A stretch of DNA of 42,595 bases, taken from NCBI GenBank assembly GCA_028282645.1, contig JANQHM010000064.1, positions 1 through 42,595 of the forward strand, written 5' to 3'. The notes below the pieces were generated by a model, which made no database searches, was not told where the DNA came from, and saw only the letters and a program-made list of their open reading frames with translations. This DNA is from Candidatus Gastranaerophilales bacterium (GTDB lineage: Bacteria > Cyanobacteriota > Vampirovibrionia > Gastranaerophilales > JANQFW01). Shown piece after piece: positions 415-25,041 of this stretch. The number at the start of each line of letters is the position of its first letter. Positions within the stretch are counted from its first letter, which is position 1. The position numbers were made by a program, and so were the translations under genes.

Positions 415-674
415 TGAGGTTAAATAAAATTGAAAGAGAAATAAAGCCGACAAAACAAGGCCAAAAAGAATTTGCCCCTGATTTAATTTATGTTATAATT
501 AAACTTAGTATACTAGGATCTTTTAATCATCTCCCGAAAGAAATGTTGAAAAGAGGGGTGGTTAACGCCCCGAAGAATTTGGCGGAGCCACTTTTAAGAA
601 AAAGTATGACTTACAGTACTTTTTGCAAGAAAAATTATGACAATCACCAAGTGATATTTAAGGAGATATATTGA
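414..674 (+). CDS. Doubtful small ORF upstream of the DtxR-type regulator
   Basis: An 86-codon frame begins with ATG at 414, only three bases after an AAGGAG supplied by the right end of the repeat element; an in-frame TTG at 402 lies inside the element. It ends with a TGA overlapping the TTG start of the downstream regulator. The product resembles no family I know. It is not FeoA, which often precedes DtxR-type genes. A good internal promoter (472-499), a dyad and a potentially structured stretch (549-595) lie within it, so the region may instead be an untranslated leader that is open by chance. I lean towards non-coding. Confidence 0.2.
   Translation: MRLNKIEREIKPTKQGQKEFAPDLIYVIIKLSILGSFNHLPKEMLKRGVVNAPKNLAEPLLRKSMTYSTFCKKNYDNHQVIFKEIY
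472..515 (+). promoter_or_regulatory. Promoter with downstream dyad for the DtxR-type regulator
   Basis: TTGCCC (472-477), a 16-base spacer and TATAAT (494-499) preceded by TG, i.e. an extended -10. A perfect 10-bp palindrome TAGTATACTA (506-515) sits at the expected transcription start. Its position directly before a metal-dependent DtxR-family gene suggests an autoregulatory operator; that role is inferred from position only. Confidence 0.55.
545..600 (+). ncRNA. Possible structured leader RNA before the DtxR-type gene
   Basis: This is a GC-rich island in an AT-rich leader. AAAAG (549-553) can pair with CTTTT (591-595) and GTGG (558-561) with CCAC (588-591). Alternatively GGGG (555-558) pairs with CCCC (568-571), and GGC (581-583) with GCC (587-589). 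The two folds compete for G558, which would suit a switching leader. It does not match the yybP-ykoY manganese riboswitch or any other class I can recall, and no U-tract terminator follows. Confidence 0.25.
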
Positions 675-1105
675 AAAAGCAAAAAATCACAGCGAGCTTG
701 GAAGACTATTTAGAAACAATATTTCATCTTGTTGAAAAACATAATGCAGCAAGGCCCATTGATATAGCAAAAGAAATGAATGTCGGCAAATCGTCCGTAA
801 CAGAAGCTTTAAAGTCTCTTGCTGAAAAAAAGCTTATTAATTATGAGCCATACAGTAAAGTGACTTTAACTTATCAAGGGCAAAAGCTTGCGCAAGAGAT
901 AGTTTTAAAGCACAAAATTCTCTATGGTTTTTTGCACGAAATCCTTGGAGTGGATAAACAGGAGGCAAAAAAAAATGCCTGCGACATTGAACATGTTATA
1001 TCTGAGCAGGTGCTGGAAAAATTAGTTGAATTTATTGAATTTAGCAAGGAGATGTACGGCAAAAATCAAAATATAGCTGAAGAATTTAAAAAATTTAGAA
1101 AGTAA
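671..1105 (+). CDS. DtxR/MntR-family metal-dependent transcriptional regulator
   Basis: The 144-residue product fits the short MntR-like branch of the DtxR family, which senses Mn(II) or Fe(II) and represses metal uptake genes. The N-terminal third (about 5-65) is a winged helix-turn-helix: SLEDYLETIFHL is the family's typical first helix, and IAKEMNVGKSSVTEALKSL is the recognition-helix region. The rest is the helical dimerisation and metal-binding domain; ACDIEHVISEQVLEKL holds the conserved Cys, Glu and His metal ligands. No C-terminal SH3-like domain is present. The TTG start at 671 is chosen because AAGGAG lies five bases upstream. The promoter and dyad at 472-515 probably drive it. No metal transporter gene adjoins it, so the sensed metal is not settled. 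Confidence 0.88.
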   Translation: MKKQKITASLEDYLETIFHLVEKHNAARPIDIAKEMNVGKSSVTEALKSLAEKKLINYEPYSKVTLTYQGQKLAQEIVLKHKILYGFLHEILGVDKQEAKKNACDIEHVISEQVLEKLVEFIEFSKEMYGKNQNIAEEFKKFRK

Positions 1106-20905: not shown

Positions 20906-21051
20906 AAGTATTTTCGCAATTAGTATATTAAATTTTTCTTAATAAAAGCACTAAAAGTTTAGTTTTTATGGTTTAATATACATGGGTGTTTACATATTTT
21001 AAAGAAAATATTATAATAACCCGGAGTAGGAAGAAATGTTGGAGAAGCAAG

Positions 21052-21321
21052 ATGTCATTAGTAGGATTAGTAATGTTCAGAAACTGGGCTATGAATACCA
21101 GACTCAATTCAGCTGCTAATATTATGAACGCAAATCAAGCATTAACAAATGCAGCTGGTAACTCCAATTTGAGCTTTGGTTCAGCTCATGCACTTGATAA
21201 AAAATTAATGGCGGACAAAGCAACAAACGGCTTGCTATACAAAGCCTCCTGTGCAATGGAAGAGTCTGCAAAGAAGCAATTGGACAAAGAGATCAAAAGG
21301 TCTTTTAGTATTTTTGCATAA
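21052..21321 (+). CDS. Small Ala/Asn-rich helical protein of unknown function (89 aa)
   Basis: 89 codons from ATG 21052, with GGAGAAGC well placed upstream; an in-frame GTG at 20986 is rejected because it lacks a site. The product starts MSLVGLVMFRNWAMNTRLN and continues with Ala/Asn/Ser-rich helix-forming sequence (ANIMNANQALTNAAGN), a Lys-rich helix and a C-terminal RSFSIFA. There is no cleavable signal peptide. The composition recalls small helical exported or axial proteins, but there is no motif that proves it. It has good codon structure and its own ribosome site and is followed by a large hairpin and a terminator, so it is probably a real monocistronic gene. Confidence 0.6.
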   Translation: MSLVGLVMFRNWAMNTRLNSAANIMNANQALTNAAGNSNLSFGSAHALDKKLMADKATNGLLYKASCAMEESAKKQLDKEIKRSFSIFA

Positions 21322-21515: not shown

Positions 21516-21727
21516 ATTAGGGTTGCCGTACTTATCTTTAAAATATTAAATTGTTAATATTTAAATTAGTTTGGTAGTAATATATTTTTATCCAAGCTTG
21601 GGAATCAAGTATTCTATTGAAATACAGCTTGTCTTTTATTTTTTTTCTTTCATAATATTTTTTATTTAAATTAAAAAAATCTAAAAAAATATTGACAAAA
21701 AATTAGGCTTGCCGTACTCTTGTCTTT
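21516..21727 (+). repeat. Pair of direct repeats upstream of the opine-dehydrogenase-like gene
   Basis: ATTAGGGTTGCCGTACTTAT with CTTTA (21516-21540) and ATTAGGCTTGCCGTACTCTT with GTCTTTA (21702-21728) share most positions. The second overlaps the promoter at 21692-21720. They could be binding sites for the same regulator or a partial duplication of the promoter region. The rest of the 450-base gap is AT-rich, with nothing else recognisable. Confidence 0.5.
21692..21720 (+). promoter_or_regulatory. Sigma70-type promoter of the opine-dehydrogenase-like gene
   Basis: TTGACA (21692-21697), a 17-base spacer and TACTCT (21715-21720), about 50 bases before the ATG. The -35 is perfect and the -10 keeps TA..T. 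The spacer and -10 are part of the second direct repeat. Confidence 0.65.
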
Positions 21728-21771: not shown

Positions 21772-23427
21772 ATGAACTTAACAAATCCGCAAATATTCCC
21801 TCAAAAGGGGAGCAATTTTAATATTGAAAAAAAATTTTTTTGCAATGAAAATAAATATTATATGCCTAAAATAAAAGTTCTAAAAAGAGATGTTGTATCA
21901 TTCAAAGGTAAAAGTTTTTCTATTGATCCTAAATTTGATGATCTTGTTAAAAAAGCAAAGATAAGTCCTGAAATGTCTAGTTATATAAAAAATATAAAGA
22001 ATAAGTCATCATTAAAAAATAATCCAAACAGTAAAGAAAAGATTCTTGTTATGGGGTCAGGCCATTTGGGCTTTGGAGTTATGCTTGACTCAATGCTTCA
22101 AAATATAAAATTGAACAAACCTATTGATATTAAAATGGTCCTTCCTAGAAGAGACAGCGAAAATACTGCTTCACGGCTGGCACCAATATATAAATTTAAT
22201 GGAACCGTAGTAAAAAATACTTTTACCAAAGAAGAAAATTTTATAGAACTTTCTGCAAGTAATTTTATACCTCAATGGGATAAACAGAAATTCAATGAAA
22301 GTATAAACAATTCTGACACTATTATTGTAACTTTACCTGATGAGCCAAGTGCAAGAAAAGAAATATTTGATAAAATCGGGTCCAATAGTCTTGATGGTAA
22401 AACTGTTATATTAATGCCCGGCGGCGAAGGTGGTGTAATTGAGACAGCAAAAAAAATTTCAGAGTCAACAAATAGCAATGTAACTGTAGGCCTGGTGGAA
22501 ACAGCTCCATATGGTTGTAGAATGAATGGTATACTTGATGCTAAACGAAAATCCCAGATAGATATAGCAGTTATTCCCAAGTCAAAAATTGGCAATGTTC
22601 TTCAAACGCTAGATAAAGTATTTCCTTTAAAAAAGGAAAAAGAAAATGTAATGAAATTTAATCCAGTATCTGCGCTTGATATTATTCTGGGTGGAGAAAA
22701 TTATATTTACCACTGCGCAGTTGTTTTGAATTCTGACAATCTTTTAAAAAGTATTAAGAAAGTAGATAGTAAGGCAGAATATCCAAAGCGATTAAAGGGT
22801 GAAAGTAATGAAGCTTTTAAAGAGAAAATGAATAGTTCTTATAATCATTATATTGAAGGCATTACTCCTGAAGTTGCCAGGATTATGGAAGGCATGGATA
22901 AAGAAAGAATGGCTATAGCAAAAGCTTTTAATCTTAAAACTGAGTCAATAAGTGAGGCTTTAAATCGACATTATGGAATAGGAAAGTATAAAACATATTA
23001 TGATGCTTTTCAAGCTTGCAAAAATGTTTATAGCTCCAGGCCACCTACTGCTGATAAGCTTGCAAATCACAGATATATAACTGAAGATTTAGCTAATACA
23101 AAAGTCATAATGAGGTTAGGCGAGATAGCAGGCATAGAAACCCCTATAACAAATAAAGCTTTTGAAGTATTCTGCTGGAATGCAAAGGAGATAAAAACTC
23201 CAAAGGATAAGCTTGTTGGATATGAGAATGCAATAAAAGAACTTCCTGATAACAAAGAAGATATTATCAGATATTTAAAGGATCCGGCGAATTTTAAAAA
23301 GGCTGAAAGTAATAAAAGATCTGACAATTCTCTTTTTAATGCGGGTAATATTTTTAAACGTAATACTAAGCCCGTTGGGCTTTTACTTAAAATGGTTCCT
23401 TATCGAAAATTAGCCCAAAATGATTAA
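21772..23427 (+). CDS. Opine/octopine-dehydrogenase-like NAD(P)-dependent enzyme with extended ends
   Basis: 551 residues, well above the 360-430 usual for opine dehydrogenases. The first 85 residues are an extra, Lys/Asn-rich segment containing VVSFKGKSFS. A Rossmann fold starts near 90 (KILVMGSGHLGFGV, dinucleotide-binding glycines), with DTIIVTLPDEPSARKE and ILMPGGEGGVIE later in it. The helical substrate domain (PF02317-like) runs from about 300 (PVSALDIILGGENYIYHCAV) and holds the conserved His of YIYHCAVVL. The last 60 residues are another unassigned tail. Enzymes of this class condense an amino acid with a 2-oxo acid reductively. Purine-rich AGAGAG precedes the ATG. An Orn/Lys/Arg decarboxylase-like gene lies downstream, beyond a terminator. 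Confidence 0.75.
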   Translation: MNLTNPQIFPQKGSNFNIEKKFFCNENKYYMPKIKVLKRDVVSFKGKSFSIDPKFDDLVKKAKISPEMSSYIKNIKNKSSLKNNPNSKEKILVMGSGHLGFGVMLDSMLQNIKLNKPIDIKMVLPRRDSENTASRLAPIYKFNGTVVKNTFTKEENFIELSASNFIPQWDKQKFNESINNSDTIIVTLPDEPSARKEIFDKIGSNSLDGKTVILMPGGEGGVIETAKKISESTNSNVTVGLVETAPYGCRMNGILDAKRKSQIDIAVIPKSKIGNVLQTLDKVFPLKKEKENVMKFNPVSALDIILGGENYIYHCAVVLNSDNLLKSIKKVDSKAEYPKRLKGESNEAFKEKMNSSYNHYIEGITPEVARIMEGMDKERMAIAKAFNLKTESISEALNRHYGIGKYKTYYDAFQACKNVYSSRPPTADKLANHRYITEDLANTKVIMRLGEIAGIETPITNKAFEVFCWNAKEIKTPKDKLVGYENAIKELPDNKEDIIRYLKDPANFKKAESNKRSDNSLFNAGNIFKRNTKPVGLLLKMVPYRKLAQND

Positions 23428-23480
23428 CTGAACAAAAAGCCCTGAAAATTTTTTATAAAAAGGAATTTCTAACTATTCAG

Positions 23481-23530
23481 GATGCCTGACTTTTATTATG
23501 CTTACAATAGTAGTGTTCAGGCATCTTTTT
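23481..23530 (+). terminator. Rho-independent terminator after the opine-dehydrogenase-like gene
   Basis: GATGCCTGAC (23481-23490) pairs with GTTCAGGCATC (23515-23525) with one bulged base, followed by TTTTT. The loop is 24 bases long. Confidence 0.8.
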
Positions 23531-23670
23531 GATTGTTAATTTTTTTAAAATAATCCACTATTATAATAGTTTTTTTCTTATTTAAAAAATTATTTATTGT
23601 TAAAATTATCTTATAATTAAATCTTATTAATATGGCTTAACCAGGCATAATTTTAACAGAGGGGCATTAA

Positions 23671-25041
23671 ATGCATTTAATCAATAAATTAAAAGAAATA
23701 ACAGAAAATAATCCGACATTATTTACCACTCCCGGACATTCTCAGGGAAAAATAATATTTCCTCCATTAAAAAAAGTAATAGGCAAGAAAGTTTTTAAAT
23801 ATGATTACTCAGAAGTTTTAGGACTGGATAACCTGCAAGATCCATCTGATACCTTGTTAAAGTCACAGCTAAGATCAGGTGTAATATACGATAGCAAAGC
23901 ATCTTTCTATTTAACAAACGGATCATCTTCAGGCATAACAGCATTAATGTTAGCCACCGCTAAAAAAGGAGAAAAAATCCTGATTGCAAGAAATGCTCAT
24001 AAATCTGTAATAAATGCATTAATTTTAACAGGAGCTGTACCTGTATGGTTAGATGTTGACTGGATAAGTGACTGGAATATATCAAATAATGTTTGCACTG
24101 CTAAAATAAAAGATCATCTGGATAATAATCCTGATATAACTTCAGTGTGGATTACAAATCCGACTTATGAAGGCATCATTGCCGATGTAGCAGAAATATC
24201 CAGAGTATGTAAAGAAAAAAATGTCAAGTTAATAGTTGACGAAGCCCATGGTGCATTATGGAATTTTCATAACGATCTGCCCGAGCCGGCTATCAAGCTG
24301 GGTGCAGACGCATCAGTTCAATCATTACATAAGAGTGCATCCTGCTTAACTCAAGGAGCAATATTGCATATAAGTAAAAATACCTCTATAACACCTGCCA
24401 AAATGCAAGAATGTTTAAACATAACAAATACAACATCACCTTCTTATATACTGCTAGCAAGTATAGAAGGAGCGATTGAGCACATAAATTCACTACAAGG
24501 AGAAAAGAATTTAAATAAGCTCTTGGAAAACATAGAAAAATTTAAGCAAAAATTACAAAAATACCCTGAAATTACTTTTTATGACGTAAACCATGACCCA
24601 ACAAAGCTATTGTTTAAGCTAAAAGATATTTCAGGCAATTTAGTAGCTGAACATCTTGAAAATAAAAGAAATATAGAAGTAGAGCTTAATAGCGATATCT
24701 CCTTAATGGCTCACACCGGCATAGGTACCACCAAGAAACAACTTGACAAGTTGATGTCTTCTCTGATTCTTGCAATAAATACATTGCCTAAAAGAAGCTC
24801 CGCCCCTGAATCTGGCAATTATTTTACCTCTGCATATGTAATATTCTCTCCGGCAGAAGCTTTTTATAAAAAATCAAAAATACTGCCAATACAAGAATGC
24901 CAAGGGCTTGTTTCAAAAGAAACCATTGTACCTTATCCGCCCGGCATTCCTATTTTAATATGCGGTGAGCTTATTAAGCAAAATCATATTGAATACCTGA
25001 TAAAAACAGGAAAAAAATCATTGGAAATAATTACTGATTAA
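23671..25041 (+). CDS. Orn/Lys/Arg decarboxylase-family PLP enzyme (short form)
   Basis: 456 residues of PLP-dependent fold type I, group III, lacking the N-terminal wing domain of the large inducible decarboxylases. Motifs in order are TTPGHSQGK (family opening), FYLTNGSSSGITALML (PLP phosphate loop), ILIARNAHKSV, VDEAHGALWNFH (Asp that contacts the pyridine nitrogen), and SVQSLHKSASCLTQGA with the Schiff-base Lys. The C-terminal domain has FTSAYVIFSPAEAFY and IVPYPPGIPILICGE. Such short enzymes decarboxylate arginine, lysine or ornithine for polyamine synthesis; which one cannot be told. An in-place GAGGGGC ribosome site precedes the ATG. Its stop overlaps the stop of the convergent Skp-like gene. 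Confidence 0.88.
   Translation: MHLINKLKEITENNPTLFTTPGHSQGKIIFPPLKKVIGKKVFKYDYSEVLGLDNLQDPSDTLLKSQLRSGVIYDSKASFYLTNGSSSGITALMLATAKKGEKILIARNAHKSVINALILTGAVPVWLDVDWISDWNISNNVCTAKIKDHLDNNPDITSVWITNPTYEGIIADVAEISRVCKEKNVKLIVDEAHGALWNFHNDLPEPAIKLGADASVQSLHKSASCLTQGAILHISKNTSITPAKMQECLNITNTTSPSYILLASIEGAIEHINSLQGEKNLNKLLENIEKFKQKLQKYPEITFYDVNHDPTKLLFKLKDISGNLVAEHLENKRNIEVELNSDISLMAHTGIGTTKKQLDKLMSSLILAINTLPKRSSAPESGNYFTSAYVIFSPAEAFYKKSKILPIQECQGLVSKETIVPYPPGIPILICGELIKQNHIEYLIKTGKKSLEIITD

Follow-up and report, generated by a model that had tools for sequence, protein, structure and literature searches.

What does an opine dehydrogenase with long extra ends do in a bacterium of the order Gastranaerophilales, and which signal controls its gene? 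These questions are raised by a locus near the middle of a 42,595-nt stretch of DNA (hereafter the window), which is contig C9 of the 3.1-Mb Candidatus Gastranaerophilales genome G000. We analyzed the encoded protein, its ends, the genomic neighbourhood and the promoter. The features are collected in Table 1.

Table 1. Features of the opine dehydrogenase locus (positions in the window)
Feature	Position	Strand	Basis and remarks
DtxR/MntR-family repressor gene	671..1105	+	PF01325 and PF02742 above cut-off
Distal box TTAGGGTTGCCGTACT	21517..21532	+	no TTGACA ahead
Promoter-like TTGACA-17-TACTCT	21692..21720	+	spacer holds proximal box 21703-21718; same element in sister and relatives
Ribosome-site-like GAGAGAA	21756..21762	+	sequence; comparable stretch in sister
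Opine dehydrogenase gene	21772..23427	+	551 aa; ORF, Pfam and PDB matches
Leader, residues 1-87	21772..22032	+	kept in sister; dN/dS 0.34
VVSFKGKSF leader motif, residues 41-49	21892..21918	+	sequence
Rossmann-type domain	22033..22668	+	GSGHLG = residues 95-100 (GxGxxG)
Octopine-DH helical domain	22669..23163	+	His314, Arg434, Asp439; ~24-residue insertion vs Pantoea relative
Extra C-terminal tail, ~residues 501-551	23272..23424	+	sister conservation, Pantoea alignment
Intrinsic-terminator-like hairpin and U-run	23479..23532	+	-23 kcal/mol, z -5.0

The gene encodes an opine-dehydrogenase-like enzyme

ORF 21772-23427 is a complete and genuine gene, which opens with ATG and has GAGAGAA ahead of the start. 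Pfam assigned PF02317 to residues 300-464 (E 1.4e-25; score 90.5 bits, cut-off 30). The top PDB match and closest solved relative was N-(1-D-carboxyethyl)-L-norvaline dehydrogenase (CENDH, 1bg6; E 2e-19), matching in both domains; CENDH differs in having 359 residues and neither the leader nor the extra tail. A profile built from four sequences additionally matched octopine dehydrogenase (3c7a/3iqd) from residue 90 onward, so that the likeness extends over the Rossmann part and the RYxTED segment, whereas the octopine dehydrogenase chain has 404 residues. Octopine dehydrogenase is an animal enzyme acting on pyruvate and arginine.

Residues invariant among the window protein and its relatives from a Pantoea plasmid and from genome G324 include G95, G97, E243, Y247 and R250, and likewise H314, which we take to be the catalytic His of the family, R434, E438 and D439. 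Catalytic and nucleotide-binding residues were thus retained throughout the three-protein alignment, and not lost. With the PF02317 and PDB matches, the GxGxxG motif, His314 and the kept RYxxED, the assignment to the opine-dehydrogenase-like enzymes made earlier from the sequence alone is upheld, and the enzyme is predicted to be functional. The Rossmann fold was assigned from the letters only, and the AlphaFold model of the window protein, obtained with an alignment of four sequences, was poor (mean pLDDT 37). PF10100, presumably the family of staphylopine-type dehydrogenases (CntM), was absent from the Pfam matches up to E 1; judged by Pfam, the predicted enzyme falls outside the staphylopine type.

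The long ends are conserved in a sister species

The sequence-only reading had described about 85 residues ahead of the fold and about 60 behind it. The former figure agrees well with the 87 residues found in front of the Rossmann fold. The latter was too high: the homologous core stops near residue 502 (the Pantoea match covers residues 89-502), and the true tail therefore comprises about 50 residues. Both halves of the protein were matched in the sister genome G292 (83% for residues 1-272, 81% for residues 270-551), and the start was conserved too. Between window gene and sister, dN/dS was 0.21 for the whole gene, with values of 0.14-0.18 in the core. A synonymous excess was also detected in the leader (dN/dS 0.34, p 0.002) and in residues 466-551 (dN/dS 0.38, p 0.007); for the last 52 residues alone it was not significant (dN/dS 0.49, p 0.08). 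Conservation in the sister, start included, together with the codon changes rules out that the ends are a start-site artefact. The long ends are real and mostly under purifying selection, as judged by conservation in one sister species.

The VVSFKGKSF motif does lie in the leader and apart from the fold, since it occupies residues 41-49 and the fold begins after residue 87. The leader is a lineage-specific addition, which perhaps serves as a sorting or partner-binding tag. Its VSFKGK part recalls short stretches close to the N-termini of unrelated proteins in the order, many of them without Pfam match; the proteins concerned include an AAA ATPase (L103), a 5'-nucleotidase (L065), a starch-synthase-like protein (L042), an mTERF-like protein (L078) and an ankyrin protein (L066). 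In the orthologue pair L045/L168, which is 32% identical, DTVSFSGK was kept exactly in a leader that had otherwise diverged. Within the first 80 residues of 1343 ORFs from six genomes of the order, a fixed form of the motif, chosen after inspection of these same ORFs, occurred 25 times, whereas shuffled sequences gave 5.3 on average and at most 12 in 300 shuffles. The lead was left unconfirmed by a small sample of 323 fresh ORFs, with 2 occurrences against 1.1 expected, and in other orders the motif was found in none of 275 ORFs. A description of such a tag as a sorting or docking signal was not found in a limited literature search. Altogether, a leader tag is suggestive only.

Some approaches to the tag were abandoned. 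A trained position matrix degenerated into noise and proved not transferable, a k-mer search carried out de novo ranked pilin-like and hydrophobic patterns first and did not place the tag on top, and an 18-base DNA pattern for VSFKGK, searched in 117 genomes of the order, was uninformative about N-termini and was set aside. L031, a protein without Pfam match that we named phosphoglucose-isomerase-like, was counted as untagged because its F-x-G belongs to a conserved native N-terminus. The mTERF family is mainly eukaryotic; the mTERF-like protein at L078:7804-8730 (PF02536, E 4e-9) comes from a bacterial genome of the order and carries VNFSG at its N-terminus.

A single-gene unit with few relatives in the order

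Because a predicted terminator follows it, the opine dehydrogenase gene forms a one-gene unit. The neighbouring gene (23671-25041) matches OKR_DC_1 in Pfam, and the basic-amino-acid decarboxylase-like gene noted earlier is thus indeed adjacent. It was rejected as a partner: the strong hairpin terminator separates the two genes, and the gene downstream of the sister copy encodes a guanylate kinase. No gene for a biosynthetic partner, exporter or receptor adjoins the dehydrogenase gene, which counts against a metallophore, and no nicotianamine-synthase-like CntL gene was found among the 19 window proteins scanned, the dehydrogenase itself included.

Upstream, the order of genes (IMPase, QueD-like, a small ORF, opine dehydrogenase) is the same in the sister. 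The small ORF directly upstream encodes a conserved protein (20986-21321 in the window; L004:1087-1359, 90 aa, in the sister) without significant Pfam match, whose LSFGS/ISFGS recalls the leader tag. The sister gene itself is split across two contig ends, with ACTTTTCAGACAGCCTC inverted at the break and TAA on both sides. Of the element, only the ends were seen (L004:1-93 and L002:1-95), and these carry 17-bp inverted ends. The break is an insertion-sequence-like interruption, and the G292 copy is probably broken.

Relatives are scarce. A protein search retrieved one from record JANQFW010000099.1, a Candidatus Gastranaerophilales MAG. At E <= 1e-10 the window protein was matched in 1 of 292 genomes of the phylum, its own; a search of the family matched it in both genomes (G000 and G292). 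PF02317 exceeded its cut-off in three of 192 genomes of the order (G000, G292 and G324), two of which hold the full-length type. The G324 protein is an ordinary enzyme of 359 aa, flanked by two genes resembling LicD on visual inspection. Genome G196 gave a weak PF02317 match, which was dropped, as the frame reads by eye like DNA polymerase I. Among plasmids 91 records matched, the best being from Pantoea (24.7% over residues 89-502), where the relative belongs to a gene cluster that also includes ATP-grasp, phytanoyl-CoA dioxygenase, MFS and LysE.

A box in the promoter resembles an iron-repressor half-site

Both upstream features claimed for the gene, its own promoter and a duplicated box, were recovered. 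TTGACA starts at 21692 and TACTCT at 21715, an arrangement that is also present in the sister, and the proximal box occupies the 17-bp spacer. The box, TTAGG[G/C]TTGCCGTACT, occurs at 21517 and 21703; the copies are 186 bp apart and have TTAGGNTTGCCGTACT in common. The sister has a single box at the same position as in the window.

When the pattern TTGACAAAAANTTNGGNNTNCCGTACT was searched with up to 3 mismatches, 19 matches were found in 9 of 40 relatives, compared with 3 when the pattern was reversed as a control. With the pattern relaxed slightly, these nine genomes yielded 22 matches and the control 0; as the nine were picked for having matches, this count is no unbiased rate. In G000 the box drives two further genes that could be read, and neither was recognisable as an iron gene, which counts against an iron reading: at L022:2528-2900 it precedes the gene of a 434-aa orphan without Pfam match, at L027:13992-15024 that of a 303-aa protein which has a GTSYAAP segment and matches subtilase below the threshold. 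Between the box and the orphan gene, about 110 bp are tandemly repeated.

FeoB genes were located in the nine box-matching genomes after the box search. Seven contained a genuine FeoB (E <= 1e-45), and in four of these the box lies upstream of the FeoB_N domain on the same strand, at distances of 711 bp (G307), 553 and 588 bp (G295), 186 bp (G311) and 115 bp (G306). At least four such placements within 800 bp upstream, a limit chosen after the distances were seen, would be expected by chance with a probability of about 9e-13. The pattern search found no box upstream of feoB in G000, G292 and G293. In G295 (C270:3021-3081), tandem boxes 35 bp apart precede feoB, much as the box ahead of the window gene is duplicated.

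PMC8464063 gives TTAGGTTAGSCTAACCTAA as the IdeR/DtxR consensus and TTAGGNNNNCCTAA as a 14-bp consensus. The window boxes agree with the half-site of the latter at 8 of 10 positions, and the best relatives at 9 of 10; the level of 8 is reached by 0.25% of random 18-mers of matched base composition. Compared with the operators described there, the window box is alike at these 8 of 10 half-site positions, in its location between -35 and -10 and in its occurrence upstream of feoB in relatives, but unlike in that the full palindrome is missing; only 13 of the 19 positions of the full IdeR consensus were matched, which counts against the iron reading. The DtxR/MntR-family protein encoded at the start of the window is a candidate reader of the box. 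The position of the box upstream of feoB in relatives and its likeness to the IdeR/DtxR half-site suggest that the opine dehydrogenase gene probably belongs to a metal-repressor (iron) regulon. This lends indirect weight to the metallophore-like product envisaged in the sequence-only reading. The interrupted sister copy counts against a functional enzyme under metal control, and the boxes could answer to some signal other than metal.

Discussion

An iron-box-like promoter on a real opine dehydrogenase gene suggests that a small metal-related product may be made under iron scarcity. We give roughly even chances to the proposal that the gene is under the control of a metal, most likely iron, and that its opine is used for metal acquisition or handling. 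The proposal starts from features that were computed, namely the enzyme class, the conserved residues and ends, the promoter with its box, the association of box and feoB in relatives and the terminator; the chemistry is deduced from the family and the metal control from the box. When the metal is plentiful, a DtxR-family repressor would presumably sit on the box between -35 and -10 and block transcription; when it is short, the single-gene transcript would be produced. With NAD(P)H, the enzyme would then couple an amino acid, through its amino group, with a 2-oxo acid, both putative substrates, and the expected product, a secondary amine with two carboxylates, may bind metal and serve in its acquisition or handling.

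The same box evidence, including its presence at feoB in relatives, is also in line with an iron-sparing redox sink, in which NADH is reoxidised through condensation of pyruvate with an amino acid once ferredoxin-dependent enzymes are limited by a lack of iron, and the product is waste rather than a ligand. Octopine dehydrogenase, which the profile matched, reoxidises NADH in muscle, and metallophore partner genes are lacking among the window proteins scanned. We consider this unlikely, as PF02317 in only three of 192 genomes would be odd for a general fermentation outlet and the long ends would be left unexplained. The enzyme might instead make a non-metal small molecule or modify the surface, sharing with feoB just promoter strength or some unrelated regulator. 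The LicD-looking neighbours of the G324 relative, the ATP-grasp, dioxygenase and exporter cluster around the Pantoea relative and the absence of iron genes among the other readable box-driven genes of G000 are consistent with such a role, which the box at four of seven FeoB genes nevertheless makes improbable. Finally, a decaying or newly acquired gene of no important role would account for the interrupted sister copy, with its inverted element ends and TAA on both sides, and for the presence of the full-length type in just two of 192 genomes. The intact window copy, the low dN/dS (0.21 overall, 0.14-0.18 in the core) and the retention of the promoter box in both species render this very unlikely.

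Under the preferred reading, an opine for metal acquisition or handling, the nearest precedents are the opine metallophores staphylopine, pseudopaline and bacillopaline, made by zinc-type CntL/CntM systems (PMC7438024). The likeness to these would be one of idea, a metal ligand produced by an opine dehydrogenase; unlike in those systems, neither PF10100 nor a CntL-like gene was found among the window proteins scanned, the gene forms a single-gene unit, and the box is of the iron rather than the zinc type. That the locus encodes a stand-alone, iron-repressed opine metallophore synthase of non-zinc type, which in addition carries an order-specific N-terminal [IV]SFxG tag acting as an undescribed sorting or docking signal, is in our view decidedly unlikely as a whole.

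If the metal reading is true, opine metal chemistry would reach another lineage, the Gastranaerophilales, non-photosynthetic relatives of cyanobacteria, and would do so with a simpler genetic layout. The tag, if confirmed, would represent a sorting or docking signal, and the box would provide a concrete entry point to the order's iron regulon.
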